A stretch of 64,000 nucleotides of DNA, from positions 124,001 to 188,000 of the forward strand of contig NZ_RQZG01000004.1 in NCBI RefSeq assembly GCF_003859805.1. The letters run 5' to 3'. Made by a program: the position numbers and the translations under genes. This stretch comes from Arachnia propionica. GTDB lineage: Bacteria > Actinomycetota > Actinomycetes > Propionibacteriales > Propionibacteriaceae. Shown here piece by piece: positions 27,812 to 50,034 of the stretch (positions are counted from its first letter, which is position 1; every line of letters begins with the position of its first letter). The notes beneath the pieces are model-generated. The model was not told where the DNA came from and searched no databases. It worked only from the letters and a program-made list of their open reading frames with translations.

Positions 27812-27834
27812 CAATGAAGCTTGAAGGAGAGCTG

Positions 27835-33704: not shown

Positions 33705-35143
33705 GGGAGTTCTCCTTGCTGGTCCAGTTTGAAGACGTGTCGGGGTTGGGTGGTCACGAGGTCGATGGCGGTCTCCAGGGCCTCTGCCTCCTCCAGACGG
33801 TGCTCGGTCACCAGGCCCGCCAGGAAGGCGCAGTCGACACGACGTGCCGCGTCGTGCCTGGCGGGGATGGAACAGAACGCGCGGGTGTCGTCGATGAATC
33901 CGGATCCCTTGCGGAGGCTGCCGTATCCCGTGACGGCACGGCGATGGCGCATCATCGCGTCGTTCTCATCGATGAACCACCAGGGTGCTCCGATGAACAA
34001 CCCCCGGTACCAGCCCGCCAGGGGGGCGAGTTCACGGGAGAACACGGTCTCGTCCATGGTGAACACCACGAGGTGGAAACCGTCAGCATTGCCGTAGGTG
34101 TCCAGGATGGGGTGCAGCGCATTCGCGAACTCGACGGCGATGGGGACATCCCCGCCGACATCGGCTCCGTAGCGCTCGAGTGTCGCCGTGTCGTGATTGC
34201 GGAACACCGCAGGATGGAGGGTCATCACGAGCCCGTCCTCGACGGCCAGGCGAGCCTGGTCATTGACCATGTGGCGTCGCAGCGCATCGGCCTCATCGGT
34301 GGTGATGACACCGCCGAGGGCACGGCGGAACAAGATCTCGGCGGTTCCCTCGTCGAGTCTCTCGCAACGGGCGTCGCGGTGTGAATGATCCGAGGAGACG
34401 GCGCCGTGCTCCCGGAAGTACTGCCGACGTCGACGCATCGCCTCCAGGTGCTCGGCGTAGCCGGTGATCTCGATCCCGGCGCTCTCACCCAGCCGTTGGG
34501 TGAGCTGCACCCAGTCGGCGCGGGCCGGCTCCAGGTAGCGGTCAGGACGGAAGGTCGGCATCACCCGCGAGGTCCACGACGGGTCATCAGCCAACCGGTC
34601 GTGTCCATGAAGGTCATCACACGGATCGTCGGTGGTGGCCAGGGCCTCGATGTTGAACCTTTCGTAGAGGGCGCGAGGACGGTACTCCGGGCGCTCCAGA
34701 CAGGCGGCGATGTGGTCGTAGATCAGGTCTGCGGTCTCGGCGCTCGGGACAGCCGTGATGCCGAAGACCTCGACGAACTGCGACGCGAACCAGTAGGCGA
34801 CCTGGGTGCCGCGGAAGATCGGCCAGTGGGTGCAGAACTGCCGGAACGCCTCGCGGGCCCGGGTGGGCGACAGTGGTGTCCCGACCGGGACCCCGAGCTG
34901 CGACAGCTCGATGCCGGCGATGCCGTGGAGCAGCCTGTTGGTGTAGTGGTCCGGGGTGAGCAGCAACGATGTCGGATCCTGGAACGGTCGGTCCTCGGAC
35001 AGCCATTCCACGGGGACGTGGCCGTGCGGGGAGATGATCGGCAGGTCCTTGACCGCTGCGTAGAGCTCGCGTGCCACGGCACGGGTGGTCGGGTCGGCGG
35101 GGAGGAGCCGATCGGGATGGATGGACAGGGTGGCAGGGGTCAT
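33701..35143 (-). CDS. uxaC: Glucuronate isomerase (UxaC)
   Basis: Metal-dependent isomerase of the amidohydrolase superfamily (480 aa, normal length) converting D-glucuronate to D-fructuronate. The N-terminal metal motif HGHVP lies at about residue 40. Further hallmarks are EDRPFQDPTSLL, YERFNIEALATTDDP and the C-terminal GWYRGLFIGAPWWFID. It starts in an ATGA overlap with lacI and ends in one with uxuB. It receives glucuronate released by UidA in the same operon. Confidence 0.95.
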   Translation of the reverse strand: MTPATLSIHPDRLLPADPTTRAVARELYAAVKDLPIISPHGHVPVEWLSEDRPFQDPTSLLLTPDHYTNRLLHGIAGIELSQLGVPVGTPLSPTRAREAFRQFCTHWPIFRGTQVAYWFASQFVEVFGITAVPSAETADLIYDHIAACLERPEYRPRALYERFNIEALATTDDPCDDLHGHDRLADDPSWTSRVMPTFRPDRYLEPARADWVQLTQRLGESAGIEITGYAEHLEAMRRRRQYFREHGAVSSDHSHRDARCERLDEGTAEILFRRALGGVITTDEADALRRHMVNDQARLAVEDGLVMTLHPAVFRNHDTATLERYGADVGGDVPIAVEFANALHPILDTYGNADGFHLVVFTMDETVFSRELAPLAGWYRGLFIGAPWWFIDENDAMMRHRRAVTGYGSLRKGSGFIDDTRAFCSIPARHDAARRVDCAFLAGLVTEHRLEEAEALETAIDLVTTQPRHVFKLDQQGELP

Positions 35144-36183
35144 CTTTGGGCCTTCCGTCTCGTGGTTCTCGTTCCAGCAGGGGCGATGCTGTCCCTGAAA
35201 TGGGCATGCATGGGGACGACGATCCGTTCCGCCCGTGAGGAGGAACGGTGACGGAGTTGATTGACCAGGGCCCGGGCCGCGCGGGAGCCCAGATCGTGCA
35301 GCAGGGGAGCCACACTGCTCAGCTTCGGTGTGGTGATGACCGAGGAGATGGAGTTGTCGATGCCGACCACGGAGACGTCAGCGGGGATGTTCCACCCCGA
35401 TCGTTGGGCAGCGTGCATGAAGCCGATCGCCATGAGGTCGTTGTAGGCGATGACCGCCGTGGTCGGACTGGACTCCCAGTCGTTGTGGGCCGCCACCCCA
35501 CCTTCCAGGGTGGGAGGGTACGCCTTGACCCTCCGGATGCTCAGCTGCAGCTCATGGCAGGCCTCCGAGATGGCCCGCCAACGCATCCCGTCAGCCCAGG
35601 AGGCAGGTGGGCCGGAGAGGTAGGCGAAGCTGACGTGTCCCAGCGAGGCCAGGTGTTCCACGACACGTCGCATGCCACGACCGGTGTCGGCGACCACGCT
35701 CGTCAACCCTGAGACGATCCGGTTGATCGAGACCACGGGACGCACCTTGGCCAGTTGCAGGATCGCCTGGTCACTGAGTCGTGACGCGGCGAGGGACAGG
35801 CCATCGACGAAGGGTGAGATCCGGGTGATGTGCTCCCTCTCGATCTCAGCGCTCTCCCGGGTGTCGATCGCGATGACGGCGAAGCCGTACAGCTCCGCCT
35901 CAGCCTCGAAGCCGCGGAGCACGTGTGCGAAGACCGGGTTCGCCGCATCGGCGATGGACATCCCCAGCACCTGTGTCGCCGTGCCCGGTTCCCCGGTCCT
36001 GACCGCCTTGGCGCGGTAGCCGAGTTCGTCGGCCACCCGCCGAACGTGCTCCGCCGTGTCCTGGTTGACCCGACCGGGACGGGCGAAGGTCCGGGACACG
36101 GTTGACGGGGCGACTCCCGCAGCCCTGGCGATGTCGTAGATGGTGACCCGCTTGCGGCGTGACCCCTCGGGGTCGTCAGTCAT
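35140..36183 (-). CDS. LacI family transcriptional regulator of the hexuronate operon
   Basis: 347 aa. N-terminal LacI helix-turn-helix VTIYDIARAAGVAPSTVSR with hinge helix, then a periplasmic-binding-protein-like effector domain (VLGMSIADAANPVFAHVLRG, FAYLSGPPASWADGMRW, VSVVGIDNS). Unusually it lies inside the operon, between larC (8-bp overlap) and uxaC (ATGA). It is therefore made only when the operon is transcribed, giving autoregulation. Probable effector: a hexuronate or hexonate. Its operator is not obvious; the shared direct repeats upstream of uidA and gnd are candidates, though their geometry is not classical for LacI. Confidence 0.9.
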   Translation of the reverse strand: MTDDPEGSRRKRVTIYDIARAAGVAPSTVSRTFARPGRVNQDTAEHVRRVADELGYRAKAVRTGEPGTATQVLGMSIADAANPVFAHVLRGFEAEAELYGFAVIAIDTRESAEIEREHITRISPFVDGLSLAASRLSDQAILQLAKVRPVVSINRIVSGLTSVVADTGRGMRRVVEHLASLGHVSFAYLSGPPASWADGMRWRAISEACHELQLSIRRVKAYPPTLEGGVAAHNDWESSPTTAVIAYNDLMAIGFMHAAQRSGWNIPADVSVVGIDNSISSVITTPKLSSVAPLLHDLGSRAARALVNQLRHRSSSRAERIVVPMHAHFRDSIAPAGTRTTRRKAQR

Positions 36184-37501
36184 GGTCGACCTCCTCGGGC
36201 CAGTGCTCCCCCGGCCGGAGCCCTGCCCGCTGTGCCTGTCGTTGCGCGGTGGCCAGGGCGATGCGCTGCGACCAACCGGTCAGCTCGGCCAGCCGTTCGA
36301 CATCCTTGAACTCGATGGTGGCGTGTCGGATCAGGTGCCCGTCCCCGGCGATCTTCACCTGCACGTCGAGTCCCTCGACCTGGATCCGGCGGAAATCACG
36401 ACGCAGCAGCCGACGCTGCTGCGGGGGGCTGATGCGCACTCCCAGGGTGCTGGTGTGCTCGAGCATCGCCCGGGTGAGATCGTCGACGTCGCGGGGATGG
36501 GCGAGGACGCACAGTGTGTGGGCGGGGCGGCCCTTCTTCATCACGATGGGCACCAGCCAGGCGTCGAGTGCGCCTGCACCGAGAAGTGTCTCGAGCACCC
36601 CCGGCCACAGCCTGGGGTCGAGGTCATCCACGTTGGCGGCGATCTCCTGCACCTCGTCCATCAGGTGCACGTCCCGCAGGGGTGTTCCGAGGACAGCTCT
36701 CAGCACTCCTGCCCGATCGGTCCGTTCCCTGCTGCCCGCGCCGACCCCGGTGGCATCGACGCGCATCGGGGGCAGGTCCGTGACCCCGGAACACAGTGCC
36801 CGGATCAGGGCCATCCCGGTGGGGGTGCACAGCTCACCGACCTCGGCAGGGCCACCGGCGTCGACCAGCCATCCGGTCGCGAGTTCCAGCACGGCCGGCG
36901 GAGGCACGCTCATCACCCCGTGCTGGGTGCGGACCGTTCCGGCCCCCAGGGCCGTGACCGAGGACGTGGCACGAATGACCCCGAGGGTGCGCACCGCCTC
37001 GCACACGGCGACGATGTCACCGATCGAGTCGAGGGCGCCGACCTCGTGGAAGTGGACCTCCTCGACGGTGACCCCGTGCACCTTCGCCTCGGCCTCCGCC
37101 AGCAGGGTGAAGGCCAGCGTGGCCGTCTCGCGGGTCGTCCCAGGGATCGCGGAATCCTCGAGAAGCTCCAGGACGTCACCCAGGTGTCGTACCGGAGGAT
37201 GGGGCTCGTCCGCCAGCACGTCGACCTTGCAGGCGGTGAAGGGGCCCCGTCGGAGTTGCCGTCGTTGGAGACGGAGCCGTCCCGGGGCGACGAGCTCGAG
37301 AACCGCAGCGACGCTGCCGGCGTCGGCCCCGGCGCCCAGCAGGGCAGCGAGCAGCATGTCCCCGGAGGCTCCCTGGGAGGTGTCCAGCCACAGCAGTCGC
37401 TGAGGTGTCGGCGATGGTCGGATGACGCCCGGAAGGATCGCCTCTCCTCGGGGCACCTGCTGTCCGTCCGCCGTGGGCAGGGTGGTCAGGTGGTCGTGCA
37501 T
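36176..37501 (-). CDS. larC: Nickel-pincer cofactor nickel insertase LarC
   Basis: CTP-dependent enzyme that inserts nickel into the pyridinium-3,5-bisthiocarboxylic acid mononucleotide made by LarB and LarE (441 aa). The N-terminus LLWLDTSQGASGDMLLAALL, the VEEVHFHEVGALDSIGDIV segment (His and Asp/Glu rich) and the C-terminal VDDLDPRLWPGVLETLLGAG are typical. In Lactiplantibacillus larC is split and joined by frameshift; here it is one continuous frame. Start at ATG 37501, overlapping the larB stop. An upstream open frame to 38395 is a shadow of larB and larE. Confidence 0.93.
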   Translation of the reverse strand: MHDHLTTLPTADGQQVPRGEAILPGVIRPSPTPQRLLWLDTSQGASGDMLLAALLGAGADAGSVAAVLELVAPGRLRLQRRQLRRGPFTACKVDVLADEPHPPVRHLGDVLELLEDSAIPGTTRETATLAFTLLAEAEAKVHGVTVEEVHFHEVGALDSIGDIVAVCEAVRTLGVIRATSSVTALGAGTVRTQHGVMSVPPPAVLELATGWLVDAGGPAEVGELCTPTGMALIRALCSGVTDLPPMRVDATGVGAGSRERTDRAGVLRAVLGTPLRDVHLMDEVQEIAANVDDLDPRLWPGVLETLLGAGALDAWLVPIVMKKGRPAHTLCVLAHPRDVDDLTRAMLEHTSTLGVRISPPQQRRLLRRDFRRIQVEGLDVQVKIAGDGHLIRHATIEFKDVERLAELTGWSQRIALATAQRQAQRAGLRPGEHWPEEVDHD

Positions 37502-38172
37502 CAGGACTTCCTGTCCGCGGCGATCTGAGCCGCCAGGTGACCGGCACCGTAGCCGTTGTCGATGTTGACCACCCCCACCCCGGGGGCGCAGGAGCTGAGC
37601 ATCGCCAGGAGGGCAGCGACCCCGGAGAACGTGGCACCGTAGCCGACGGAGGTGGGAACCGCGACGACGGGGCACCGGCTCAGTCCTGCCACCACGGGGA
37701 CCAGTGCCCCGTCCATGCCCGCGACGACGATGATGACCGTGGCCTCCTCCAGCGCCCCACGGTGGGCCAGGATGCGGTGCAGACCAGCCACTCCGACATC
37801 GGAGATCTCCTGCACCGGTCTTCCCAGGTGGGAGGCGGTCAGGGCCGCCTCCCGGGCGACCGGCAGGTCGGAGGTGCCGGCACACACCACGAGGACCTGC
37901 CCACCGGTGGGCGGGGGTGGGGCGGGTGGCCACACGACCATGCGGGCATCGAGATGATGAGCCGCCTCGGGAAGGATGTCCGCGATCCCGGCGGCCTGTT
38001 CCTCCTCGACCCGGGTGAACAGCAGCGGACCGAGCTCTTCGGTTGCCGCACGCTCCCGCCAGAGGGTGGCGATCTGCCGGAGTTGTGCCACGGACTTGCC
38101 ACTGCACAGCACTGCCTCGGGAAAGCCTCGACGCTCGAACCGGTCGAAGTCCAGATTGGGCATGTGGGTCAC
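37501..38172 (-). CDS. larB: Nickel-pincer cofactor carboxylase/hydrolase LarB
   Basis: Carboxylates the pyridine ring of nicotinic acid adenine dinucleotide and hydrolyses it, the first step of Ni-pincer nucleotide synthesis (223 aa). The N-terminal half includes AVLCSGKSVAQL. The C-terminal half is the PurE-like domain: VVCAGTSDLPVAREAALTA, IIVVAGMDGALVPVVAGL, PVVAVPTSVGYG and VGVVNIDNGYGAG. Start taken as GTG 38172, a GTGA overlap with larE and GGGG upstream; ATG 38163 is the alternative. The gene lies in order larE-larB-larC, all overlapping. Confidence 0.94.
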   Translation of the reverse strand: MTHMPNLDFDRFERRGFPEAVLCSGKSVAQLRQIATLWRERAATEELGPLLFTRVEEEQAAGIADILPEAAHHLDARMVVWPPAPPPPTGGQVLVVCAGTSDLPVAREAALTASHLGRPVQEISDVGVAGLHRILAHRGALEEATVIIVVAGMDGALVPVVAGLSRCPVVAVPTSVGYGATFSGVAALLAMLSSCAPGVGVVNIDNGYGAGHLAAQIAADRKS

Positions 38173-39011
38173 GGTGTTCCCCCTGACTGCAGCTGGAGCG
38201 TGAACACCCCGGAGCGGATCCCGGCCAGATCCACGGTGACATGGGTGAACCCGACCTCCCGCACGGAGCGGAGCACGGAGCTTCGCACCTGTGGGTCGGC
38301 GAGACGGTGGAGTTCTCCCTCGGGGACCTCGATGCGTGCGGTCTCCCCGTGGTGTCGAACCCGACAATCGGTGAAACCGGCGGTGAGCACCGCATCCTCG
38401 GCGTGGTCGATCTGGGCGAGCTTCTCGGGGGTCACTGGGTCGCCGTGGGGGATCCGGCTCGCCAGGCAGGGTGATGCGGGTTTGTCGGCGCTCGGTACCC
38501 CGAGAGCGCGTCCCAGTTCCCGGATCTGGGCCTTGGTCAGGCCGGCATCCGCCAAGGGGTGGCAGACGGCGTGTTCGATCGCGGCCCGACGGCCGGGGCG
38601 GTCCGGGCGGGCCAGGTCGTCGGCGTTCTCCCCGTAGGCCACGGCCTGGATCCCGAACTCCGCCAGGCGGTTCCCGATGTCCACGAACAGGGTGTTCTTG
38701 CAGTGGTAGCAACGGTCCAGGTCGTTTCGGGCGTAGCGGGGATCCGTGACCTCCTGCGTCGCCAGCTCCACCAGCTCGAGCCCGAGATGGCGGGCCTGCC
38801 GCACGGCGAGGGTGTGTTCACGTCGTGCCAGGGACGGGGAGACCGCCAGCAGCAGGAGCACGGCATCGGCACCCCGAAGCCGTGCGATGACGGTGGCCAG
38901 GACACTCGAGTCCACGCCGCCGGAGTAGGCCACGCCGATCCTGCCGTGGGGCAGGGCCTGCTCGACGTCGTGCACCCATCGGCGTTGCTCAGAGGTCAAG
39001 GGAGTGCTCAT
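38169..39011 (-). CDS. larE: Nickel-pincer cofactor sulfur transferase LarE
   Basis: ATP-dependent sulfur insertase that converts the carboxylates of the LarB product to thiocarboxylates (280 aa). The PP-loop is VAYSGGVDSSVLA (about residue 27). Cys residues lie in DLDRCYHCKNTLF and in ASPCLASRIPHG. The latter corresponds, I believe, to the sacrificial Cys of Lactiplantibacillus LarE; the extra CxxC suggests the version that uses a [4Fe-4S] cluster and is catalytic. Start ATG 39011 overlaps the uidA stop (ATGA). A frame extending to 39149 lies inside uidA. Confidence 0.93.
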   Translation of the reverse strand: MSTPLTSEQRRWVHDVEQALPHGRIGVAYSGGVDSSVLATVIARLRGADAVLLLLAVSPSLARREHTLAVRQARHLGLELVELATQEVTDPRYARNDLDRCYHCKNTLFVDIGNRLAEFGIQAVAYGENADDLARPDRPGRRAAIEHAVCHPLADAGLTKAQIRELGRALGVPSADKPASPCLASRIPHGDPVTPEKLAQIDHAEDAVLTAGFTDCRVRHHGETARIEVPEGELHRLADPQVRSSVLRSVREVGFTHVTVDLAGIRSGVFTLQLQSGGTP

Positions 39012-40768
39012 CCGTTTTGCCCACCGAGCCAGCGTTCGCGCACCTTGTACGCGGCGGCCTTCGGGGTCCTGTCCCGGGTGAACATGCCCTTGCGATTGCC
39101 TCCCACACGCATGATGCCAGGGATGGTCTGGAAGTCCGCGAAGTTCCACGTCTGCTCTCCGACCACCTCCGGGAACTCGTCGAAGACCCGGTGATACATG
39201 TCGAAGAACTTCTCCTGGTAGTCCTCCGACCAGGGACGCGCCTGGAGGTCACGCATCCCGGCGAGGGTGTCCGGACCGTACTCGGTGAAGATGACCGGTT
39301 TGCCGGGACACAGGCTGATCCACCCCTGGATCTCCTGTCGCAGGAGGGACTCGGCCAGGACGAGGTCGTTGTTCTGCCAGTACCAGCCGTAGTAGCGGTT
39401 GAGCATCACGACGTCGAACAGGTCGATGATGCGCTCCTTGTCCGGGGTGGAGATCATGACGTTGACATAGCCGACGGGTCGGCTCGGGTCCGCCTCCCGG
39501 GCAGCGGCCGCGAGGGGCTCGAAGTAGCTGCGTGAGGCATCCGTGTGGGACTCCGGCTCATTGGCGATGGACCACAGCACCACGCTGGGGTGGTTCTTGT
39601 CTCGCGCAATCAGTTCCCGGATGTGGGCCTCGTGGACCCGCTGGGTCTCGGCGTTGATCGTGTCCTGGCTGAAGGTCACGGTCGGTTGGTTCGGGCTGCC
39701 GAAGATGCCTCCGCTGATGCCGATGTTGAGGCCGACGGCGGCGGTCTCGTCGATGACGACGATGCCCTGCTGGTCCGCGAAGTCCATGACCTCATCGGCG
39801 TACGGGTAGTGGGAGGTGCGGAACGAGTTGGCCCCCTGCCAGCGCATCAGCTCGAAGTCGTGGACCATCATCACGTCGTCGTGGCCCTTGCCCCGCACGA
39901 GGTTGTCCTCGTGCCTGCCGTAGCCCTTGAAGTGGAACGGGCGGCCGTTGATGAGGAACTGGGAGTCCCTCACCTCGACGGTACGGACCCCGAAGGGTTG
40001 GGGGTAGAGGTCGTCATCGGCGATGACCTCGAGGGTGTACAGGTAGCCCCGGCCGGGCTCCCACAAGGTGACCTCCGGGATCTTCACACGCCCCTCGGCC
40101 CCCTCGGCCCGGGCCACGACCTGCTGCTGTGCGTCGAGGATCCTGACCCCGATCTGCCGGGCACCGTCGGCGACCACCCGATAGTTGACGGTGCCATCCA
40201 GCTCAGTGGTGATCGTGACGTCACTGACGGCGACGGCCGGGCGGGTGATGAGTTTCACGCCGCGGTGCAGGCCCGCGTAGTTGTAGAAGTCGTGGAAGTA
40301 GCGTTGGTGGATTCCGGACTCCTCAACCTCGAGGTAGCCGGGAGGAATGCTCTGCCAGGACAGCCGGTTGTCCACGGCGACCGTGAGCAGGAAGGATTCT
40401 CCCGGGACCACGTGGTCGGTGATGTCGGCCTCGAAGGGCAGGTATCCGCCGACGTGCCGTGCGACCTCCTGGCCGTTGACCCACACCGTCGCGGCATGGG
40501 TGGCGGCCCCGAACCAGAGGTGCAGTCGGTCCCCGTCATGGAGCCGGGGAGCCTGGACGCGACGCTGGTACCAGACCTCCCCGACGTGGTCGTGGACGTG
40601 AGGCGAGACCGTCACGTCGTTGTACGAGGAGGGGACGGGCATCGGTCGCGGCTCGGGCAGGGGATTCCCGGCCCAACCGGCCTCGCGACCATCCGCGTCG
40701 AGTTGGAACTCCCACACGCCGTCCAGTGGGGTCACGGTTCGAGACGGAGAGGTACGGGGGAACAGCAT
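39008..40768 (-). CDS. uidA: Beta-glucuronidase (GH2)
   Basis: Intracellular GH2 beta-glucuronidase (586 aa) freeing glucuronic acid from imported glucuronides. The jelly-roll N-terminal domain (GVWEFQLDADGREAGW, VWYQRR) and Ig-like domain are followed by the TIM barrel with acid/base Glu in WSIANEPESH and nucleophile Glu in PVIFTEYGPDT. The glucuronide-specific NxK motif is present in VGGNRKGMFTRDRTPK, which marks true glucuronidases over galactosidases. No signal peptide. ATG 40768 has GAAGGAG upstream. First gene of the operon uidA-larE-larB-larC-lacI-uxaC-uxuB, divergent from the transporter gene. Confidence 0.96.
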   Translation of the reverse strand: MLFPRTSPSRTVTPLDGVWEFQLDADGREAGWAGNPLPEPRPMPVPSSYNDVTVSPHVHDHVGEVWYQRRVQAPRLHDGDRLHLWFGAATHAATVWVNGQEVARHVGGYLPFEADITDHVVPGESFLLTVAVDNRLSWQSIPPGYLEVEESGIHQRYFHDFYNYAGLHRGVKLITRPAVAVSDVTITTELDGTVNYRVVADGARQIGVRILDAQQQVVARAEGAEGRVKIPEVTLWEPGRGYLYTLEVIADDDLYPQPFGVRTVEVRDSQFLINGRPFHFKGYGRHEDNLVRGKGHDDVMMVHDFELMRWQGANSFRTSHYPYADEVMDFADQQGIVVIDETAAVGLNIGISGGIFGSPNQPTVTFSQDTINAETQRVHEAHIRELIARDKNHPSVVLWSIANEPESHTDASRSYFEPLAAAAREADPSRPVGYVNVMISTPDKERIIDLFDVVMLNRYYGWYWQNNDLVLAESLLRQEIQGWISLCPGKPVIFTEYGPDTLAGMRDLQARPWSEDYQEKFFDMYHRVFDEFPEVVGEQTWNFADFQTIPGIMRVGGNRKGMFTRDRTPKAAAYKVRERWLGGQNG

Positions 40769-40832
40769 GGCACTCCTTCGGGTCCGGTGGGCTGTTTTCA
40801 TTGGATCAAGTCCGGCGATCCACCCCGCCAGA

Positions 40833-40881
40833 TTGCCATTTGTTGCCGGCCTGGTCCGGGGAGCGCGGCAACATTCGGCAA
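40833..40881. promoter_or_regulatory. Paired direct-repeat operator between uidA and the GPH transporter
   Basis: TTGCC (40833) and TTGCC (40843) are 10 bp apart. After 19 bp come the mirrored GGCAA (40867) and GGCAA (40877), again 10 bp apart. The right element read on the minus strand is TTGCCGAATGTTGCC, one base different from TTGCCGAATCTTGCC at 46407. Ten-bp spacing puts each pair on one face of the helix. Probably the control site for both divergent promoters. Confidence 0.65.
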
Positions 40882-40959
40882 GTCAGGGGATCCGAGTCGC
40901 CGGGGTGGGAGGGTGGGCACCACGCCGCGACGCTGCGGCAGCCGCGAGAGGAACCACAG

Positions 40960-42387
40960 ATGACACCCACCACGTCGGGGACCACCAGACGCCCCTTCGG
41001 AATGCGCGACAAGATCGGGTACATGTTCGGTGATTTCGGCAACGATTTCACCTTCATCCTGCAGTCGGCGTTCTTCATGCTCTTCTACACCAACGTCGTC
41101 GGGATCAATCCCGGCCACGTCGGGCTCCTGCTGCTGACGGCACGGGTGCTCGACGGCTTCACTGATGTCGGCATGGGAATCCTCGTCGATCGCCTACCGG
41201 TCAAGGCCGGCGGGGCGAAGTTCAAGCGGTGGATCAAGTTCATCGCCATCCCGGTGGCGGTTGCCTCTGCGCTGATGTACATGGCCTTCGTCGCCGACTT
41301 CGACTCCTACACCGCGAAGTTGGTGTGGATGTGCGCCACCTACATGTTGTGGGGGTCGGTGTGCTACACCGCGGTCAACATCCCCTACGGTTCGATGGCC
41401 TCGGTGGTCTCCGACAATCCCGACCACCGCGCAGAGTTGTCGGTGTTCCGTTCCACCGGTGCCACCCTTGCGCAGCTCATCATCATGGGGGCGCTTCCCC
41501 TGCTGGTCTACACCACGAACGAGGCTGGGGTCTCCGTCCTGTCCGGGCCTCGGATGAGCATCGCGGCCGCCGTGTGCGCGGTCCTCGCGGTCGGATGCTA
41601 CGCCCTGTGCTATCGGCTGGTCGAGGAGCGCGTCCCCTCCGGCTCGGGCAAGGACGGGACCAGCCCCGGGATCGCGACGATGCTGCGCGCGGTCTTCACC
41701 AACCGTGCGTTGCTGGGGCTCATCGTCGCAGCCATGCTCCTGCTGCTGTCGATGCTCTTCCTGGGCCAGATGGTCAGCTACCTGTTCCTCAACTACTTCG
41801 GGGACGGCAAACTGTCCTCTCCCGCCTCGATCGCGGGCATCGCCCCGGCGTTGCTGCTGATCGTGCTCGCACCGATGCTGTCCAGGCGGTTCGGCAAGGC
41901 CGAGACCGGGATGGTCGCGATGTTCGGTGCCGGGGCCCTGTTCGTGCTGGCCTTCTTCATCAAGATCCAGAACCCGGTGTGGTGGATCGTCGTCTATGCC
42001 GTCGGGATGTTCGCCATCTCGGTGTTCAACTACCTGGTGTGGGCCTTCATCACCGATGTGATCGACTTCCAGGAGGTCCGCAGCGGCTCCCGTGACGACG
42101 GGACCGTCTATGCGATCTACTCCTGGGCACGCAAGCTCGGTCAGGCACTGGCCGGCGGTCTCACCGGATGGTCGCTCGGACTCATCGGCTTCGACGCGCA
42201 GGCCGCGAAGCAGGGGATGGCCCAGACGCCGGAGGTCAACGAGGGGATCTACATGCTGGCCAACCTCGTCCCCGGTGTCGGGTGCCTGCTGGTCGGGGCA
42301 GCCCTGTTGTTGCTCTACCCGCTGAAGAAGTCCGTGGTCGAGGAGAACACCAGGACCCTGCGGGAGCGTCGTGCCGCCAAGGCCTGA
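40960..42387 (+). CDS. GPH-family sugar (glucuronide):cation symporter
   Basis: 475 aa, twelve hydrophobic segments, of the glycoside-pentoside-hexuronide symporter family. The start is typical: MRDKIGYMFGDFGNDFTFI, then DVGMGILVDRLPVKAGGAKF with the Asp/Arg loop, VNIPYGSMASVVSDNPDHR, and ITDVIDFQEVRSGSRDDG in the second half. Being divergent from the glucuronidase operon and sharing its operator, it is most likely a glucuronide importer like UidB/GusB. I chose ATG 40960 (MTPTTSG), with AGAGGA upstream, over a frame extending through the intergenic operator. Confidence 0.9.
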   Translation: MTPTTSGTTRRPFGMRDKIGYMFGDFGNDFTFILQSAFFMLFYTNVVGINPGHVGLLLLTARVLDGFTDVGMGILVDRLPVKAGGAKFKRWIKFIAIPVAVASALMYMAFVADFDSYTAKLVWMCATYMLWGSVCYTAVNIPYGSMASVVSDNPDHRAELSVFRSTGATLAQLIIMGALPLLVYTTNEAGVSVLSGPRMSIAAAVCAVLAVGCYALCYRLVEERVPSGSGKDGTSPGIATMLRAVFTNRALLGLIVAAMLLLLSMLFLGQMVSYLFLNYFGDGKLSSPASIAGIAPALLLIVLAPMLSRRFGKAETGMVAMFGAGALFVLAFFIKIQNPVWWIVVYAVGMFAISVFNYLVWAFITDVIDFQEVRSGSRDDGTVYAIYSWARKLGQALAGGLTGWSLGLIGFDAQAAKQGMAQTPEVNEGIYMLANLVPGVGCLLVGAALLLLYPLKKSVVEENTRTLRERRAAKA

Positions 42388-42503: not shown

Positions 42504-43802
42504 TCAACCCTGGGCCCCGGACCGGACCCGGTGCAGCAGTTCCCCGGCGTTCGGCACGACGAGGGTGTCGGGATCGGCCTCGAGAGCGAGGAGGTCGACC
42601 TCCTCGGGGTCCAGGTGTCTCAGGCCCAAGGACTCGACGACCTCACGCGGGATCCCCGTGGCCAGGGTCACCGTCACCCGGTTGGTCTCCACCCCCGTGA
42701 CCGGGTCGTAGTCCCCGAGCCCACGGAGATGGGTCGAATGGGCCAGTTCACCCCACGGATGGTTCTTGAACCGGTCCCACTGCTCGACGTAGTACTGCCG
42801 GTTGTGGTAGCCGATCTCCAGGATTCCCGGATGCATCACCGACACCTCGGTGATGTGGGGTGCGTAGATGATGAGCTCGCCGCCGTCGGCCACCACGGGC
42901 TCCAGCTTGTAGAACCCCTTGGCCCCGGTCCACATGTCCTCGTACATCGTCGGGATGAGCGAGACCACCCGCGGGTAGGTGCGGTCGACATGGCGCACGT
43001 GGACCTGGCTGGAGACCTCCGCGCATGCCTCCCATGCGGTCCGGGAATCACCGAAGGCCAGGAAGTTCAGGGAATCGCTGCCCGGGGCCACGATCATGCC
43101 GAGGAGCAGTTTCGTCGCGGGGATCAGTTCGGTGGCGGCGTCGATCATCTGCCTCACCGGCGTGATCCCGGTGGCACCGATCATCTCGTGGGAGGTGATG
43201 AGCGCACCCACCCAGTGCGACATGTCGATCACGTCATGACCCGACAGCCCGGGGTAGAAGTACTTGTTGCCACCCGAGATGCCCACCACCTCGTGTGGGA
43301 GGACCGGGCCGAGGATCAGGCAGATGTCGGTCTCGACCGCCATCCTGTTCACCAGTACCCGCATCGGACGATCCCGCAGCCTGCCGGAGGTCAGCTCCTC
43401 GATCCGTGCGGCAGGGATGGTGCCGAGGTCGGCAAAGGTGTCCTCGTCACGCCACCGGTGGTTGTGGATGCTCCAGCCGGGGTAGGTCTGCTCGAACCTC
43501 CCGGGCTCGCACCCCATGAGACGGGCGATGGCCTCGTCACCCATGTAGTCGTGGGTACCGAGGGCGATGACCACCCGCACCGAAGCCGGACGTGACCCGA
43601 GGGCGTCACGGATGTGTTTCGACAGCTGGGCGACGGGAGCATGGCGGGTGCCGTCCGGGACGATGAGGGTGATGTGTCTGCCGTCAAGATCGTGGGTGCT
43701 GAGACAGCGGTGGACGAAGTCCCGGATCTCCTCATCGGTCAGGGTCCGCTCGGGGCCACCGACGGACTCGGCCTCGGCGACCCCCGGGTAGAGTCTGGTC
43801 AT
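42504..43802 (-). CDS. LarA-family nickel-pincer racemase/epimerase (candidate mannonate/gluconate 2-epimerase)
   Basis: 432 aa member of the lactate racemase superfamily, which uses a nickel-pincer nucleotide to move a hydride at C2 of alpha-hydroxy acids. Visible hallmarks: LIVPDGTRHAPVAQLSKHI, VIALGTHDYMGDEA, HNHRWRDEDTF, the presumed cofactor-binding Lys in ISGGNKYFYPGLSG and the presumed Ni-ligand His in IDMSHW. The complete cofactor pathway LarBCE lies in the facing operon. Neighbours are a sugar-acid kinase, Gnd and the uronate enzymes, which make D-mannonate. Its C2 epimer is D-gluconate, so I infer that reaction. A lactate racemase is less likely here. ATG 43802 has GAGGAGG upstream. 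Confidence 0.85.
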   Translation of the reverse strand: MTRLYPGVAEAESVGGPERTLTDEEIRDFVHRCLSTHDLDGRHITLIVPDGTRHAPVAQLSKHIRDALGSRPASVRVVIALGTHDYMGDEAIARLMGCEPGRFEQTYPGWSIHNHRWRDEDTFADLGTIPAARIEELTSGRLRDRPMRVLVNRMAVETDICLILGPVLPHEVVGISGGNKYFYPGLSGHDVIDMSHWVGALITSHEMIGATGITPVRQMIDAATELIPATKLLLGMIVAPGSDSLNFLAFGDSRTAWEACAEVSSQVHVRHVDRTYPRVVSLIPTMYEDMWTGAKGFYKLEPVVADGGELIIYAPHITEVSVMHPGILEIGYHNRQYYVEQWDRFKNHPWGELAHSTHLRGLGDYDPVTGVETNRVTVTLATGIPREVVESLGLRHLDPEEVDLLALEADPDTLVVPNAGELLHRVRSGAQG

Positions 43803-43812
43803 CGTCGCCTCC

Positions 43813-44889
43813 TCACCTGACGACCCTCGCGTTGCCCTCCCACACCGACCAGACCTGGGCCTCGTCCGCGGGAAGGGCATGGTCGCGCAGGGTGGTCGCA
43901 GCCATGGCCCCGGTGGCCCAGCCGAACTGCATGCAGCGTTCGGGGGACCAGCCGTTGAGGATCCCGTGGAGCACGCCGCCGACGGAGGCGTCGCCACCAC
44001 CGATCCGATCGAGCACCTCGATCTCACGCAACGCGGCGACGGCGAACTCTCCCTGTGACCACAGGATCATTCCCCACCGGTGTCGATTGGCCGAGATCAC
44101 CTCTCGCAGGGAGGTGCCGATGCACAGGGCATCAGGGTACTGCTGCCGGATCGTGAGGATCATCTCCCGGTACTGCTCGATCTGCTCGTCGATGTCAGTG
44201 CCTCCCGCCCGGGGACCCGAGATGCCGAGGGTCAGCTGGAAGTCCTCCTCGTTGCCGTAGAGGATGTCGCAGTGGGAGGCGATGGCCGTGAAGGCCGAGG
44301 ACAGCTCCTCCTCGCGTCCCTTCCAGAACGAGGCGCGGTGGTTGAGGTCGAATGAGACCCGGGTGCCGTGTTCCTTCGCCCGTGCCGCCAGCTCGACACA
44401 GAACTCGCTGGTTCTGGGTGACAGCGCGGCGACCAGGCCGGACATGTGCAGGATCTTCACCCCTTCGTCCCGGAACAGCCGATCGAGGTCGAAGTCGGCG
44501 ATGGCCAGGTCGCGTCCCACCTCGCCGGCCCGGTCGTTCCAGACCCGTGGGGCGCGACCTCCGAAGCCTGAGTCCGCGATGTTGAACTGGTGACGGTAGC
44601 CCCAGGCGTCGCCCTGAGCCTTGTCAGGTCCTTCGTAGGCCATGCCGCGGGCCCGCAGGTCGGCCTTGATCAGTGAGGAGATGGGCGAACCTGCCACGAA
44701 GTTGGTCAGCACCTTGGTCGGGAGCCCCAGCGCAGCCACGACGGAGGCCACGTTGGTCTCGGCCGAGGTGGCCTGCATCAGGAAACGACTCGAGACGTGC
44801 ACCGCCTCCCGGTTCTCCGGCGTGAGGCGTACTCCCATCGAGGTGGGGACCACCAGTGCCCAGCGGGCGTCATCGCGCAATTCCATCAT
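43813..44889 (-). CDS. PfkB-family sugar-acid kinase (KdgK-like; gluconate or 2-keto-3-deoxygluconate)
   Basis: Ribokinase-like kinase of 358 aa. Substrate-side features are ATSAETNVASVVAALGLPTK and HMSGLVAALSPRTSEF. The catalytic loop is VLDRIGGGDASVGG, the GGGD variant seen in 2-keto-3-deoxygluconate kinases rather than the usual GAGD; the base Asp is kept. Start ATG 44889 overlaps the gnd stop (ATGA) with GGAGG 7 nt upstream. Placed between gnd and the LarA homologue it would phosphorylate gluconate to 6-phosphogluconate, feeding Gnd. If a mannonate dehydratase exists elsewhere it could instead act on KDG. The sequence alone does not decide. Confidence 0.82.
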   Translation of the reverse strand: MMELRDDARWALVVPTSMGVRLTPENREAVHVSSRFLMQATSAETNVASVVAALGLPTKVLTNFVAGSPISSLIKADLRARGMAYEGPDKAQGDAWGYRHQFNIADSGFGGRAPRVWNDRAGEVGRDLAIADFDLDRLFRDEGVKILHMSGLVAALSPRTSEFCVELAARAKEHGTRVSFDLNHRASFWKGREEELSSAFTAIASHCDILYGNEEDFQLTLGISGPRAGGTDIDEQIEQYREMILTIRQQYPDALCIGTSLREVISANRHRWGMILWSQGEFAVAALREIEVLDRIGGGDASVGGVLHGILNGWSPERCMQFGWATGAMAATTLRDHALPADEAQVWSVWEGNARVVR

Positions 44890-46340
44890 GCTTTCACCTC
44901 CGGTCGTCCGGGTTCGGCCCACCGGGTGTGGAACGTACCCTCGTCATCGATGCGTCGATACGTGTGCGCACCGAAGAAGTCCCGTTGCCCCTGGATCAGG
45001 CAGGCCGGCAGGCGGCTGGTGCGGATGCCGTCGTAGTAGGCCAGCGACGATGAGAACACCGGGGTGGGGACACCGTGCAGGGCTGCGTCCGAGACGACAC
45101 GGCGCCACGACGGCAGTGCTGCCGCCACGCGTGTGGCGAAGAAGTCGTCGGCCAGCAGCAGGGGCAGATCCGGGTCGGTATCGCAGGCACGGGCGATCTC
45201 ACCCAGGAATCGTGCCCGGATGATGCAGCCGCCCCGCCAGATCCGTGCCAGTGCCGCCAGATCGATCTCCCAGCCGTACTCGAGCGCTGCCGCGCGGATC
45301 TCGCCCAGTCCCTGGGAGTAGGCGATGAGCTTCGAGGCGTAGAGGGCCTGCCGGACGTCCTCGATGAAGGTGTCGGCATCGGTGACCCGCCACGACCGGG
45401 AGCCGGCCGCGAAGGTCTGTGCGGCGACCCGCTGGGGCAGGGAGCTGGACAGTGCCCGGGCGAAGGTGGCCTCGGCGATCCCGGTCACGGGGACCCCGAG
45501 GTCGAGGGCGACCTGGGTGGTCCAGACCCCGGTTCCCTTCTGACCGGCCGCGTCGAGGATCACGTCGACCAGTGGTCTGCCGGTGCGCGGGTCCACCTGA
45601 CGCAGCACCTCGACGGTGATCTCCAGGAGGTAGGAGTCGAGCTCACCGGAGTTCCACTGCGCGAAGACGTCCGCGATCGCGGCGGGTTCGAGTCCGAGCG
45701 CCGAACGCAACAGGTGGTACGCCTCCCCGATGACCTGCATGTCGGCGTATTCGATGCCGTTGTGGACCATCTTGACGAAATGACCCGCACCGTCAGCCCC
45801 GATGCGGGTGCAGCAGGGCTCGCCATCGACCTTCGCGGCGATCTTCTCGAACATGGGACCCAGCCGGTCATATGACTCCTGGGAGCCACCGGGCATGATC
45901 GAGGGGCCCCACAGGGCTCCCTCCTCACCACCCGAGACGCCACACCCGACGAAGTGCAGCCCTTGCTCACGCAGACGTGCCTCGCGGCGTCGCGTGTCGG
46001 TGAACAGGGAGTTCCCGCAGTCGACGATGATGTCACCGGGTTCCATCCGGGAGGCCAGGTCGTCGATGACGTCGTCGGTGGCCTGCCCTGCCTGGACCAT
46101 GACGAGGGCGACGCGCGGTCTCTCCAGACAGGCCACGAACTCCTCCATCGATGTGGTCGGAAGGAACCGGGCCTGCGCACCGTGGGCGGCCATGACCTGT
46201 TCGGTTCGTTCGACGGAGCGGTTGTGGATGGCGACACGGTGGCCGTTGCGGGCCAGGTTGCGGGCGAGGTTCGAACCCATCACACCCATACCGGTGACAC
46301 CGATGTCAGCGGAGGCGTTTCCTGGGGCGGGCAGAGACAT
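44886..46340 (-). CDS. gnd: 6-phosphogluconate dehydrogenase (decarboxylating)
   Basis: Full-length dimeric 6PGDH (484 aa): 6-phosphogluconate + NADP to ribulose 5-phosphate, CO2 and NADPH. N-terminal Rossmann motif IGVTGMGVMGSNLARNLA, NADP-type loop HNRSVERTEQV, substrate signature GCGVSGGEEGALWGPSIMPG, catalytic Lys in HFVKMVHNGIEYADM, and C-terminal GQRDFFGAHTYRR. ATG 46340 has AAGGAC upstream. It leads the operon gnd-pfkB-larA homologue, an unusual place for a pentose phosphate enzyme. This suggests it serves gluconate made from hexuronates. Confidence 0.96.
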   Translation of the reverse strand: MSLPAPGNASADIGVTGMGVMGSNLARNLARNGHRVAIHNRSVERTEQVMAAHGAQARFLPTTSMEEFVACLERPRVALVMVQAGQATDDVIDDLASRMEPGDIIVDCGNSLFTDTRRREARLREQGLHFVGCGVSGGEEGALWGPSIMPGGSQESYDRLGPMFEKIAAKVDGEPCCTRIGADGAGHFVKMVHNGIEYADMQVIGEAYHLLRSALGLEPAAIADVFAQWNSGELDSYLLEITVEVLRQVDPRTGRPLVDVILDAAGQKGTGVWTTQVALDLGVPVTGIAEATFARALSSSLPQRVAAQTFAAGSRSWRVTDADTFIEDVRQALYASKLIAYSQGLGEIRAAALEYGWEIDLAALARIWRGGCIIRARFLGEIARACDTDPDLPLLLADDFFATRVAAALPSWRRVVSDAALHGVPTPVFSSSLAYYDGIRTSRLPACLIQGQRDFFGAHTYRRIDDEGTFHTRWAEPGRPEVKA

Positions 46341-46406
46341 GGGGGTCCTTCGTGGTCGTGACTTGGTTCCCCCAGCATGCTCAGCCCGGACGTGTGGGAT
46401 CGCTGG

Positions 46407-46447
46407 TTGCCGAATCTTGCCACGGGTTTCGTGACAATTCACGGCAA
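46407..46447. promoter_or_regulatory. Paired direct-repeat operator between gnd and GH3 genes
   Basis: TTGCC (46407) and TTGCC (46417) are 10 bp apart, followed after 11 bp by the mirrored GACAA (46433, one mismatch) and GGCAA (46443). The outer arms form a perfect 9-bp inverted repeat TGGTTGCCG/CGGCAACCA (46404-46412, 46442-46450). Same architecture as 40833-40881, with a central gap 8 bp shorter. Confidence 0.65.
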
Positions 46448-46522: not shown

Positions 46523-48286
46523 ATGGTGGATCTGAGAGCGACACCGTTCAATCTCGATGAGGGCGGCGTCGCCTGGGTCGAGGCGACGATCGCTGGGATG
46601 ACCGATGAGGAGAAGATCGGTCAGCTCTTCGTCAACATGGGGTCGGAGCGGTCCGAGGAGTACCTCACAGCGGTGTTGGACGAGTTCCACATCGGGGCGG
46701 TGCGCTACAACCCGGGCACCGCGGAGGAGGTGTGGGAGCAGAACCGCATCCTCCAGGAGAGGTCGAAGCTGCCGATGTTGATCGCGGCGAACACCGAGGC
46801 CGGCGGCAACGGTGCCTGCACTGATGGCACCTATGTCGGTCACGGGGCCAAGATCGGCTGCACCCATGAGGTGCGCTACGCCTACGAACTGGGTCGCATC
46901 TCGGGGATCGAGGCCGCTGCGGTCGGGTGCAACTGGTCCTTCGCCCCGATCGTCGACATCTACCGCAACTGGCGCAACCCCGTCGTGTCGAGACGATCCT
47001 TCGGCGGGGACGTCGATCTGGTCATCGAGATGTCCTTGGCCTACATGCGCGGCATCCGGGAATCCGGGATCGCTCCGGCCGCCAAGCACTGGCCCGGTGA
47101 TGGCATCGACGAACGGGACCACCACCTGTCCCACGCCCCCAACTGGTTGACCACGGATGAATGGGACGAGACCTTCGGAAGGTTGTACCAGACCCTGATC
47201 GATGCCGGGTTGCCGTCGATCATGGCCGGCCACATCGCTCTGCCGAGCTATCAGCGGCACTTCAATCCAGCCATGGCAGACGATGACATCCTGCCGGCCT
47301 CGTTGTGCAAGGAGATCACCACGGATCTGCTGCGTGGCAAGCTGGGTTTCAACGGTGTGGTGGTCACCGATGCCTCACACATGGTCGCGATGACCGGTGC
47401 CATGAAGCGCAGCGAGTTGCTGCCGGCCGCCATCGAGGCCGGGTGTGACATGTTCCTGTTCTTCAACGATCCCGAGGAGGATTTCCGATGGATGATGGAG
47501 GGGTGGCGTTCCGGCAGACTGAGTGACAATCGCCTCGACGATGCCCTGCATCGCATCCTCGGGCTCAAGGCGATGCTCGGGCTCCACGAACGTCCCCGTG
47601 AGGAACTGCTGCCGCCGAAGCAGGAGGCCCTGGCCCGGATCGGACTCCCGGAGTCGAAGGCCGTGGCTGTGGAGATCGCCGATCGTGCGATCACCCTGGT
47701 CAAGAACAAGGATCCGCAGGTCCTGCCGTTGTCGGTGGAGCGCTACCCCCGGGTGCTCGTCGTGCCCATCTCCTCACCCCCCAGCCCCTTCGCGATGATG
47801 GTCGACAGCGGCGCGGGACATCCGGCGGACAAGGTGGTCGCGAAGCTGAACGAACGTGGCTACCGGGCTGAGCGGTACGTCAGCCAACTGGAGCAGGTGC
47901 AGGGCAGGTCTCCCGAGGAGGTCAGGCAGATCCTGCGTGACGCCTATGCCGGCAAGTCACCGATCTCAGGGCTCACCGACAACCATGACCTGGTGGTGTC
48001 CGTGGCCGAGGTCAACGGCCTGGGGCAGCCCGTGGAACGGCCCTACTGGCCGGGTACGAAAGGAACCCTGGACATGCCGTGGTACGTCCATGAGGTTCCC
48101 ACCATCGTGATCTCCACGGCCTCGCCGAACCTGTTGGCCGACATGCCCCAGGTCAAGACCTTCATCACAGCATTCGACGACCAGGACTTCACCCTCGATG
48201 CGGTGCTGGACAAGCTGGAGGGTCGAAGTGAGTTCCGCGGCCGTCCCGCCACCGAGATGTTCCCGTTCGCCGACACCCGGATCTAG
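46523..48286 (+). CDS. Glycoside hydrolase family 3 (beta-N-acetylhexosaminidase-like), intracellular
   Basis: 587 aa GH3 enzyme. The barrel shows LPMLIAANTEAGGNG, the KHWPGDG segment with following DERDHHLSH (His/Asp pair of the NagZ-like branch) and nucleophile Asp in GVVVTDASHMVAM. A C-terminal alpha/beta sandwich is present (about residues 400-570). No signal peptide, so it works on imported oligosaccharides. Together with UidA it could dismantle disaccharides of glucuronate and N-acetylhexosamine, such as those from hyaluronan or chondroitin. This is inference from context. ATG 46523 has AAGGAG upstream; frames further left cross the operator. Confidence 0.88.
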   Translation: MVDLRATPFNLDEGGVAWVEATIAGMTDEEKIGQLFVNMGSERSEEYLTAVLDEFHIGAVRYNPGTAEEVWEQNRILQERSKLPMLIAANTEAGGNGACTDGTYVGHGAKIGCTHEVRYAYELGRISGIEAAAVGCNWSFAPIVDIYRNWRNPVVSRRSFGGDVDLVIEMSLAYMRGIRESGIAPAAKHWPGDGIDERDHHLSHAPNWLTTDEWDETFGRLYQTLIDAGLPSIMAGHIALPSYQRHFNPAMADDDILPASLCKEITTDLLRGKLGFNGVVVTDASHMVAMTGAMKRSELLPAAIEAGCDMFLFFNDPEEDFRWMMEGWRSGRLSDNRLDDALHRILGLKAMLGLHERPREELLPPKQEALARIGLPESKAVAVEIADRAITLVKNKDPQVLPLSVERYPRVLVVPISSPPSPFAMMVDSGAGHPADKVVAKLNERGYRAERYVSQLEQVQGRSPEEVRQILRDAYAGKSPISGLTDNHDLVVSVAEVNGLGQPVERPYWPGTKGTLDMPWYVHEVPTIVISTASPNLLADMPQVKTFITAFDDQDFTLDAVLDKLEGRSEFRGRPATEMFPFADTRI

Positions 48287-48294
48287 GGGAGAAC

Positions 48295-49206
48295 ATGACC
48301 AGCCAGCTGATTCCCGAGCACGCCCGGGCGTTGCGTGACTTCCAGCCGGGGCACGACTTCTTCGTCGGGATCGACTCCGACGGGTGTGCCATGGATGCGA
48401 TGGACATCAAGCACCAGGAGTGCTTCACCCCTGCCTACATCAAGTACTTCAACCTGCAGGCCGCATCCGGGCTGGTACGGGAGACCGCGTTGTTCGTCAA
48501 CCTGTACTCCAGCACCCGCGGCCAGAACCGGTGGGTCGCGTTGGACAGGCTCTTCGAGCTGCTGAGACAACGCCCTGAGGTGCTGAGCAGGGGAGTGCAG
48601 ATCCCCGAGGGTGGTGAGTTGCGGCGTTTTCTCGACTCCGGATTCCCCAGGTCGGATGCCGGGATCGCAGCCTTCGCGGCCGAGCACCCGTCCGCGGAGA
48701 TCGAGACCTGCATCGAATGGGGTCGGGGGGTCAACGAGTTGATCGCCTGGATGGTCCACGGCTGCGCTCCCTTCGACGGGGTTCGGGAGGCGATCCGGGC
48801 GATGCAGGACCTCGTCGACTGCATGGTGGTCTCGGCAACCCCCGTCGAGGCCCTGCAACGGGAGTGGGCCGAGCATGACCTCGCCCGCCACATGAGGGTG
48901 ATCGCCGGTCAGGAGATGGGGTCCAAGGCGGAACACCTGCGATGGGCGGCGAAGGGCAGGTATCGCCTCGATCGCATCATGCTGATCGGTGATGCCCCGG
49001 GGGATCGCGACACCGCAGCCGAGGAGGGGGTGCTGTTCTACCCGATCCTGCCCGGGGACGAGGTGAGCAGCTGGAGGCGGTTCAAGGACGAGGCCCTGTC
49101 GAGGTTCCTCGACGGAACGTTCGCCGGGAGCTATCAGGAACAGTTGTTGGCGCAGTACGACCAGCTGCTTCCCGAGGTACCCCCGTGGAGTCGGCCCGTG
49201 GGCTGA
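48295..49206 (+). CDS. HAD-superfamily hydrolase
   Basis: 303 aa phosphatase-like protein. HAD motif I is FVGIDSDGCAMD (Asp-x-Asp), motif II VVSATP, motif III Lys in GSKAEH, motif IV MLIGDAPGD. The cap between motifs I and II is large (about 150 residues). It begins 8 bp after the GH3 stop, so it is cotranscribed. Substrate unknown; a sugar phosphate released in the glycan route is plausible. Confidence 0.85.
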   Translation: MTSQLIPEHARALRDFQPGHDFFVGIDSDGCAMDAMDIKHQECFTPAYIKYFNLQAASGLVRETALFVNLYSSTRGQNRWVALDRLFELLRQRPEVLSRGVQIPEGGELRRFLDSGFPRSDAGIAAFAAEHPSAEIETCIEWGRGVNELIAWMVHGCAPFDGVREAIRAMQDLVDCMVVSATPVEALQREWAEHDLARHMRVIAGQEMGSKAEHLRWAAKGRYRLDRIMLIGDAPGDRDTAAEEGVLFYPILPGDEVSSWRRFKDEALSRFLDGTFAGSYQEQLLAQYDQLLPEVPPWSRPVG

Positions 49207-49320: not shown

Positions 49321-50034
49321 GTGTGGTGGCGCAGGAGGAGTTCCGGGAACAACGAGGCGGAGGCGGCCCGGCGGATCGCGGAGCTGACCGATTCCCGGCG
49401 CGCCATCGCCCTGGCCTACGAGGTGGAGCGGCGGCGCATCGAACGTGACCTGCACGACGGTGCCCAGCAGTATCTCGTGGCGGCGGCGATGAAGCTGGGG
49501 GAGGCACAGCTCTCCCCGGCGTTGGCGGGGGATCCCGGGGCCGTGCAGCTGCTCAAGGACGCGGCAGCCGCGATCCAGGAGGGGCTGCAGGCGTTGCGCC
49601 GCACCATCCAGGGCATCCATCCGCAGCTGTTGGCGCAGCAGGGCCTGGTCTCCGCACTGGAGGAGGTGGCGGCGACGGCGGCGAACCGGGTGCGGATCGT
49701 CGCTCCCCACCCGCTGCCGGAGCTGTCCGAGGAGGTGCTCGCGGTGGGGTACTTCTTCGCCTGTGAGGCCATCGGCAATGCGGCGAAGCACGCCCCTGAC
49801 GCAGGTGTGAGCGTGCTGGTGGCCAGTGATCGCAACCTGTTGGTCTCGGTGGTGGACTCCGGGCCGGGTGGGGCCGAGTTCGTCCCCGGGCGCGGGTTGG
49901 TCGGGATGCGTGAGCGACTGGCGGCGGTCGGTGGGAGACTGGAGCTGTCGTCCCCGTCGGGTGGGCCGACGAGATTGTCCGCGACGATCCCGCTGCTGCT
50001 CGCGCGGGGAGAATCAGGGGTGGTGCTGGCATGA
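49321..50034 (+). CDS. Soluble NarL-type sensor histidine kinase
   Basis: 237 aa cytoplasmic histidine kinase lacking any membrane or sensor domain. It has a short N-terminal helix, the HisKA_3 phospho-acceptor in RRIERDLHDGAQQYLV (His about residue 43), and an HATPase domain with CEAIGNAAKHA (N box), DSGPGG and GRGLVGMRERL (G boxes). It must sense an internal cue or a partner protein. GTG start at 49321; it overlaps the regulator gene by 4 bp. Confidence 0.9.
   Translation: MWWRRRSSGNNEAEAARRIAELTDSRRAIALAYEVERRRIERDLHDGAQQYLVAAAMKLGEAQLSPALAGDPGAVQLLKDAAAAIQEGLQALRRTIQGIHPQLLAQQGLVSALEEVAATAANRVRIVAPHPLPELSEEVLAVGYFFACEAIGNAAKHAPDAGVSVLVASDRNLLVSVVDSGPGGAEFVPGRGLVGMRERLAAVGGRLELSSPSGGPTRLSATIPLLLARGESGVVLA

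Follow-up and report, generated by a model that had tools for sequence, protein, structure and literature searches.

Tandem GGCAA boxes before glucuronide genes of Arachnia propionica and a likely LacI-family reader

In two intergenic regions of the Arachnia propionica DNA analyzed here (64,000 nucleotides, positions 124,001-188,000 of contig NZ_RQZG01000004.1, hereafter the window), divergent gene blocks are preceded by the same short repeated element. Are the blocks controlled together, which protein reads the element, and what does it do there? We favor, with a probability of about 0.68, the following explanation as a whole: each promoter would carry one site, in which two GGCAA(C) boxes (in some cases three) follow one another head-to-tail at 10-bp intervals and which is nearly always directed toward the gene; the reader would be the LacI-family protein encoded at 35140-36183, in whose linker the canonical hinge motif is missing; its binding would activate transcription; and GH2-lar-lacI-uxaC-uxuB, the transporter gene, gnd-pfkB-larA and GH3-HAD would form one glucuronide regulon.

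Facing arms and the genes that they precede

Facing TTGCC-N5-TTGCC arms are found at 46407-46447 and at 40833-40881, two to a region; read in the direction of its gene, each arm is a head-to-tail GGCAA-N5-GGCAA (Table 1). In the gnd/GH3 region the first arm, TTGCCGAATCTTGCC (46407-46421, forward strand), differs by one base from the element at 40867-40881 on the other strand, as had been pointed out in an earlier note on this DNA and as direct comparison bears out. The second arm, TTGCCGTGAATTGTC (46433-46447, reverse strand), has one mismatch in its boxes. Both arms of the GH2/transporter region (40833-40847, forward, and 40867-40881, reverse) are exact, and the gaps between the arms are 19 bp and 11 bp in the two regions.

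With up to one mismatch allowed, these four arms are the sole matches in the 64-kb window. Since 2.5 such matches are expected anywhere in the window, it is not their count but their placement that is remarkable: four arms fall in intergenic regions of 190 and 182 bp, for which 20,000 first-order simulations gave 0.033 on average and never more than 2. The mirrored pair that had been described in both regions is indeed there, and a scan of the 3,397,337-base genome for the paired pattern TTGCCN5TTGCC-N5..30-GNCAAN5GGCAA finds both regions and no other place, the reversed pattern, used as a control, having no match. Exact single arms occur at three further places in the genome, within or near open reading frames. 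The proposal that the element ties the two divergent blocks into one regulon is well supported, in that the same genome-unique element precedes both and is conserved at orthologous promoters.

Table 1. Positions of arms, candidate promoter boxes and genes in the 64,000-nucleotide window
Feature	Position	Strand	Basis or remark
Candidate UxuB-like fructuronate reductase, mannitol dehydrogenase family	32307..33704	-	best NCBIfam matches below cut-off
UxaC glucuronate isomerase	33701..35143	-	NCBIfam over cut-off
Proposed site reader, a LacI-family regulator of 347 aa lacking the canonical hinge motif	35140..36183	-	profile and hinge comparison
LarC, nickel-pincer cofactor synthesis	36179..37498	-	over cut-off
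LarB ORF, true start probably internal	37504..38712	-	over cut-off
LarE ORF, true start probably internal	38169..39149	-	over cut-off
GH2 glycosidase, beta-glucuronidase candidate	39008..40769	-	Pfam
Arm for GH2-larE-larB-larC-lacI-uxaC-uxuB, GGCAACAAATGGCAA	40833..40847	-	about 63 bp before GH2 start
Arm for MFS_2 (GPH-type) transporter, GGCAACATTCGGCAA	40867..40881	+	78 bp before ATG at 40960
Candidate -10 GAGGGT, transporter promoter, offset 42	40909..40914	+	aligned string; weak alone
MFS_2 sugar transporter	40960..42387	+	Pfam
LarA-like nickel enzyme	42507..43802	-	best NCBIfam match NPN_18 hexonate epimerase
PfkB-family sugar kinase, proposed gluconate kinase	43816..44889	-	Pfam/NCBIfam
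Gnd, 6-phosphogluconate dehydrogenase	44889..46341	-	over cut-off
Candidate -10 CATGCT, gnd promoter, family-wide offset 42 from site start	46374..46379	-	aligned string; weak alone
Arm for gnd-pfkB-larA, GGCAAGATTCGGCAA toward gnd	46407..46421	-	ends 65 bp before gnd start 46341
Arm for GH3-HAD, GACAATTCACGGCAA toward GH3	46433..46447	+	76 bp before GH3 start 46524
GH3 glycosidase	46524..48286	+	Pfam
HAD-like protein, conserved beside GH3	48295..49206	+	label from the earlier note

Position of the site within promoters

A search of 198 genomes of the family for LarA-like proteins gave matches in 85, weak ones counted, and 40 stretches of relatives were fetched. A relative of the LarA-like gene stands in named records of Tessaracoccus, Propionimicrobium, uncultured Arachnia and further Propionibacteriaceae or actinobacteria; Tessaracoccus oleiagri, a cultured relative, has a related locus. 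LacI orthologs (E 1e-65 or better) were found in at least 82 of the 198 genomes; scoring took in no more than the ten top candidates of each genome, which makes absences of LacI less than firm. Sixty more stretches were fetched around LacI genes, 83 stretches with LacI being analyzed, and 20 uxaC stretches were added from genomes without a detected LacI ortholog or with a second uxaC, 85 uxaC genes being scored. The gene starts used for relatives are extrapolations based on alignments.

The computed orientation of the sites is nearly uniform. Upstream of the single starts of catabolic and lar genes, 45 sites point toward the gene and 5 away from it, a count that omits lacI and larA and to which one genome can contribute overlapping stretches; the scoring does not extend to 85 sites that lie between divergent starts, 7 within genes and 84 at other positions. 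Of the sites upstream of lacI itself, 25 of 27 point away from the gene.

Phasing was computed after near-copies had been removed from the promoter set, which shrank from 118 rows to 92 and then to 91. When these 91 non-redundant promoters are aligned on the site, the recurring features are a T at +19, a box resembling a -10 and, at +54/+55, a C-A pair; otherwise the alignment shows no strong motif. TANNNT as a -10 gave nothing across all promoters. The looser NANNNT, a pattern chosen after the promoter sequences had been read, peaks, counted from the site start, at offset 42 with 28 of the 91, at 43 with 20 and at 44 with 13 (background 2.8, sd 2.0), and the peak persists in the 44 promoters of genes other than uxaC (10, 8 and 5; background 1.3), whose start codons lie at other distances. 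The -10-like box thus sits 27-29 bp beyond the tandem site, and this fixed offset would place the site at about -55 to -41, immediately ahead of a poor -35. Both promoter boxes, the -10 as well as the -35, are weak. Two of the four promoters in the window, those of gnd and the transporter gene, have NANNNT at the expected offset; the strings at that position before GH2 (TCCAAT) and GH3 (TTGTCT) are without its A. In 16 of 92 promoters a third box, inverted, gives GGCAA-N4-TTGCC. It was considered as a part of the operator and then discounted, since it occupies the place of the -35, is mostly not CG-centered and is best taken, at least in part, for the -35 itself.

Upstream of the LacI genes the arrangement is another one. 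TANNNT follows the site by 5-9 bp in 18 of 40 cases, other windows giving 0 to 4 of 40, and in 17 of 27 when the site is within 50 bp of the start; at that distance the site would cover the -35 and the spacer. Examples are L126:1769-1783 and L133:8933-8947, where a lacI promoter, probably a leaderless one, has its -35 and spacer overlain by a tandem site that points away from the gene. The geometry of the catabolic promoters is that of an activator and the geometry of the lacI promoters that of a repressor, and it is from this geometry that we infer activation at the former.

LacI-family proteins are mostly repressors. This habit, together with the site over the -35 and spacer of the lacI promoters, speaks for a second reading, in which the protein reads the sites but represses or, like the E. 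coli anti-activator CytR, which works with CRP (PMC3454398), blocks another activator, so that its loss would turn the genes on. We consider this unlikely, if still a serious contender: at catabolic promoters the site is wholly upstream of the -35, its orientation and phase are fixed, and a second strong motif is wanting in the alignment. On the activation reading, LacI bound at about -55 to -41 would most likely help RNA polymerase, and at the lacI promoter of relatives it would most likely shut itself down.

The LacI-family protein and its linker

The protein encoded at 35140-36183 has a LacI-type helix-turn-helix (PF00356; 47.7 bits, cut-off 27) and a periplasmic-binding-protein-like sensor domain matched by PF13377 and PF00532. 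By both domains it is still a member of the LacI family; the typical hinge alone fails, in that the linker reads YRAKAVRTGEPG in place of a leucine hinge-helix motif (..ARSL or similar).

LacI is the sole regulator that recurs at these loci (22 of 41 stretches), and the computed distribution of sites follows it. Over the 83 stretches with LacI, spacing-5 sites number 1.35 per kb within 250 bp of the gene and 0.125 per kb elsewhere, which is eleven times denser; for spacings of 3, 4, 6, 7 and 8 the density near LacI is 0.07 to 0.17 per kb. A site lies within 250 bp in 43 of the 83 stretches, the other 40 being without one. Such near sites occur in 18 of 44 stretches with LarA and also in 25 of 39 without it, so the site follows LacI rather than LarA. 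A site is present within 200 bp before uxaC in 49 of 62 cases with LacI in the stretch (13 being without one at this stringency) as against 3 of 20 with no such LacI there (Fisher p 4e-7), and two of these three genomes carry such a LacI elsewhere; where the LacI in the stretch has a normal hinge the count is 0 of 3. One stretch (L200, genome G034) has a close uxaC (69%) beside GH3, with neither LacI nor site, and is a candidate for regulon loss or rearrangement.

A second line of evidence comes from the hinge. By pattern match, 12 of the 13 LacI proteins with less than 39% identity have the motif, as against one of the 83 at or above that value. In a tree whose root serves for drawing only and some of whose branches are long, 81 degenerate-hinge proteins form one clade (support 100/98); its sister is one normal-hinge protein, the other normal-hinge proteins lie outside, and one further protein scored as hinge-less groups with them. 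Upstream of the 13 normal-hinge LacI genes, GGCAA-N4-TTGCC is found in eight, all CG-centered. Among the 82 hinge-less genes nine have the palindrome, CG-centered in one of the nine, and 40 have the direct repeat. The CG-centered palindromic operator, which is typical but not obligatory for the LacI family, is replaced by tandem boxes at our locus. One half-site appears in two arrangements, each going with its own type of hinge, and nothing else argues as strongly for its recognition by the LacI head; the protein at 35140-36183 is the likely reader of the sites.

Other regulators were considered. Among the gene clusters at the loci to which a name could be given, none of IclR or AraC type recurs. 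The histidine kinase and LuxR-type response regulator encoded directly downstream of GH3-HAD (49321-50699, forward strand) are not conserved at the loci of relatives, only one (L050) of 40 stretches giving weak matches. Head-to-tail sites just upstream of the -35 are typical of AraC-type or response-regulator activators, and an unlinked activator of such a type might read the tandem boxes, LacI being a bystander with another operator. This is improbable given that no regulator other than LacI is conserved there, that the site tracks it even where LarA is missing and that the same GGCAA half-site makes up the CG-centered palindrome beside normal-hinge LacI genes; nor does any other operator-like motif stand out in the aligned promoters.

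If LacI is the reader, the absence of the hinge motif may leave its two DNA-binding heads free to bind head-to-tail rather than on a CG-centered palindrome. Few branches of the tree show the loss of the hinge together with the change of operator, so that their association rests on about two evolutionary events. At six of the 13 normal-hinge LacI genes an extra tandem box lies beside the palindrome; tandem boxes are thus not exclusive to the hinge-less clade and, the normal-hinge cases falling on few branches, the change may have consisted in dropping the palindrome rather than inventing the tandem. Two loci upstream of normal-hinge LacI genes (L191:5148-5181 and L195:4521-4554) combine a CG palindrome and tandem boxes in a four-box GGCAA-N5-GGCAA-N4-TTGTC-N5-TTGCC. 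Tentatively, we would picture the ancestor of the clade as a LacI-type repressor that lost its hinge motif and so no longer depended on a CG-centered palindrome, whereupon the conserved GGCAA half-site was re-used head-to-tail at about -48 and the protein became an activator contacting RNA polymerase, in charge of a nickel-dependent glucuronate pathway while still repressing its own gene.

The nearest precedent in operator tolerance is CytR of E. coli, an atypical member of the LacI family, for which GTTGCATT-like octamers may be arranged as direct or as inverted repeats (PMC3454398). Its half-site GTTGCATT resembles the GTTGCC found here. CytR sites, as described in the part of that work drawn upon, are weak and mostly inverted repeats, the direct repeats with a 1-bp spacer having a 9-bp period (PMC3454398), whereas the arrangement here is a uniform tandem of 10-bp period and comes with no second strong motif. 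The two are not orthologs; the window protein scores 117 bits with the NCBIfam CytR model, for which the cut-off is 436. A survey of 1303 LacI regulators, as far as its text was available, gives palindromic motifs, 1173 of them with a central CG, palindromes being what was searched for (PMC4052901). Typical LacI operators share the half-site, which the normal-hinge relatives use as GGCAA-N-CG-N-TTGCC, but the regulon clade has tandem repeats without CG. UxuR, ExuR, UxaR and KdgR, to which our protein would be comparable in the control of uronate catabolism, are listed as separate orthologous groups (PMC4052901). In the literature covered, where subscription journals are thinly represented, we found no paper on head-to-tail LacI operators in Actinobacteria. 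As LacI operators are treated as palindromes, and were searched for as such in the portion of the large survey consulted (PMC4052901), regulons of this kind would be easily missed. The same half-site, as a CG palindrome with a normal hinge and as tandem boxes without the hinge motif, provides a clean evolutionary series in which the role of the hinge in operator geometry is directly testable.

One arm per promoter and the predicted pathway

The earlier note had made conservation in orthologous regions the test of its repeats, and the repeats were found to recur. Within the genus, arms are present at the gnd, GH3, transporter and GH2 promoters; family-wide, the 10-bp tandem precedes uxaC, gnd, GH2, transporter and larE genes. 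When 12,159 bp of intergenic DNA from more distant loci (64 stretches) were searched with at most one mismatch, spacing 5 gave 45 matches and other box spacings 0 to 7; the mean in 200 simulations was 0.92 and the maximum 4.

It is the mirror that does not hold up as operator architecture. The two facing arms could be one operator, bound by a dimer or looped, as the earlier note implied and as their presence in both regions of the window would suggest. The gap between them is 11, 15, 18, 19 or 20 bp in same-genus relatives where the arms are close and, by reading of the sequences, several tens of base pairs in other relatives, and solitary arms precede gnd or GH2 where the divergent partner is absent; a single operator is very improbable. 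A palindrome made of both arms was rejected for the same unconserved spacing, and a search for a shared palindrome in distant loci turned up nothing beyond CAAC and short words rich in GC. The unit is a single head-to-tail arm belonging to one promoter, and the mirror merely reflects the divergence of the genes. Chance or a compositional repeat, which the expected number of matches in the window might recall, is refuted statistically by placement, family-wide enrichment, spacing, orientation and phase, and has next to no standing.

Some promoters of relatives have three in-phase boxes with a 10-bp period (L058 before GH2; L068, L072, L078 and L112 before uxaC; L074 before gnd), a hint that a site may take up more than one dimer.

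The genes suggest a single route, from glucuronide by way of glucuronate and fructuronate to mannonate, which a nickel epimerase would convert to gluconate for passage through 6-phosphogluconate to ribulose 5-phosphate. UxuA has no match in this genome. Among 28 genomes of our choosing it exceeds the cut-off in 2 of 15 with LarA as against 9 of 13 without (Fisher p 0.006), four genomes with weak LarA-like matches only (G109, G174, G180 and G189) being counted as without. This tendency toward mutual exclusion, together with the missing UxuA, favors the single-pathway reading put forward earlier, with enzyme functions predicted from family matches. The LarA-like protein reaches 162 bits with the NPN_18_hexonate model, below the cut-off of 500, and the nickel-pincer maturation genes larB, larC and larE are present. 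LarA groups 19 and 20 convert mannonate to gluconate, and group 19 occurs in uronic-acid gene contexts (PMC7583248). The proposed step is like that put forward, in the part of that work drawn upon, for GntE of Thermotoga maritima and LarA groups 18-20, where mannonate-to-gluconate epimerization feeds the pentose phosphate pathway (PMC7583248). It differs in its setting, Propionibacteriaceae, and in having gnd, a PfkB kinase, larB, larC and larE in one regulon; the activity here is a predicted one. A nickel-dependent bypass of mannonate dehydratase, tied to the pentose phosphate pathway, would thus stand under one switch in an actinobacterial family. The HAD-like protein has no Pfam or NCBIfam family at 1e-5.

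Two other parts of the window deserve mention. Two large non-ribosomal peptide synthetase genes (7495-19859, reverse strand; 1816 and 2305 aa) encode condensation, AMP-binding, carrier, methyltransferase, thioesterase and TubC-type docking domains, and their product is possibly a siderophore. A 739-aa sialidase-like BNR-repeat protein is encoded at 27814-30033 (forward strand) and may signify use of host-type glycans alongside the glucuronide locus.
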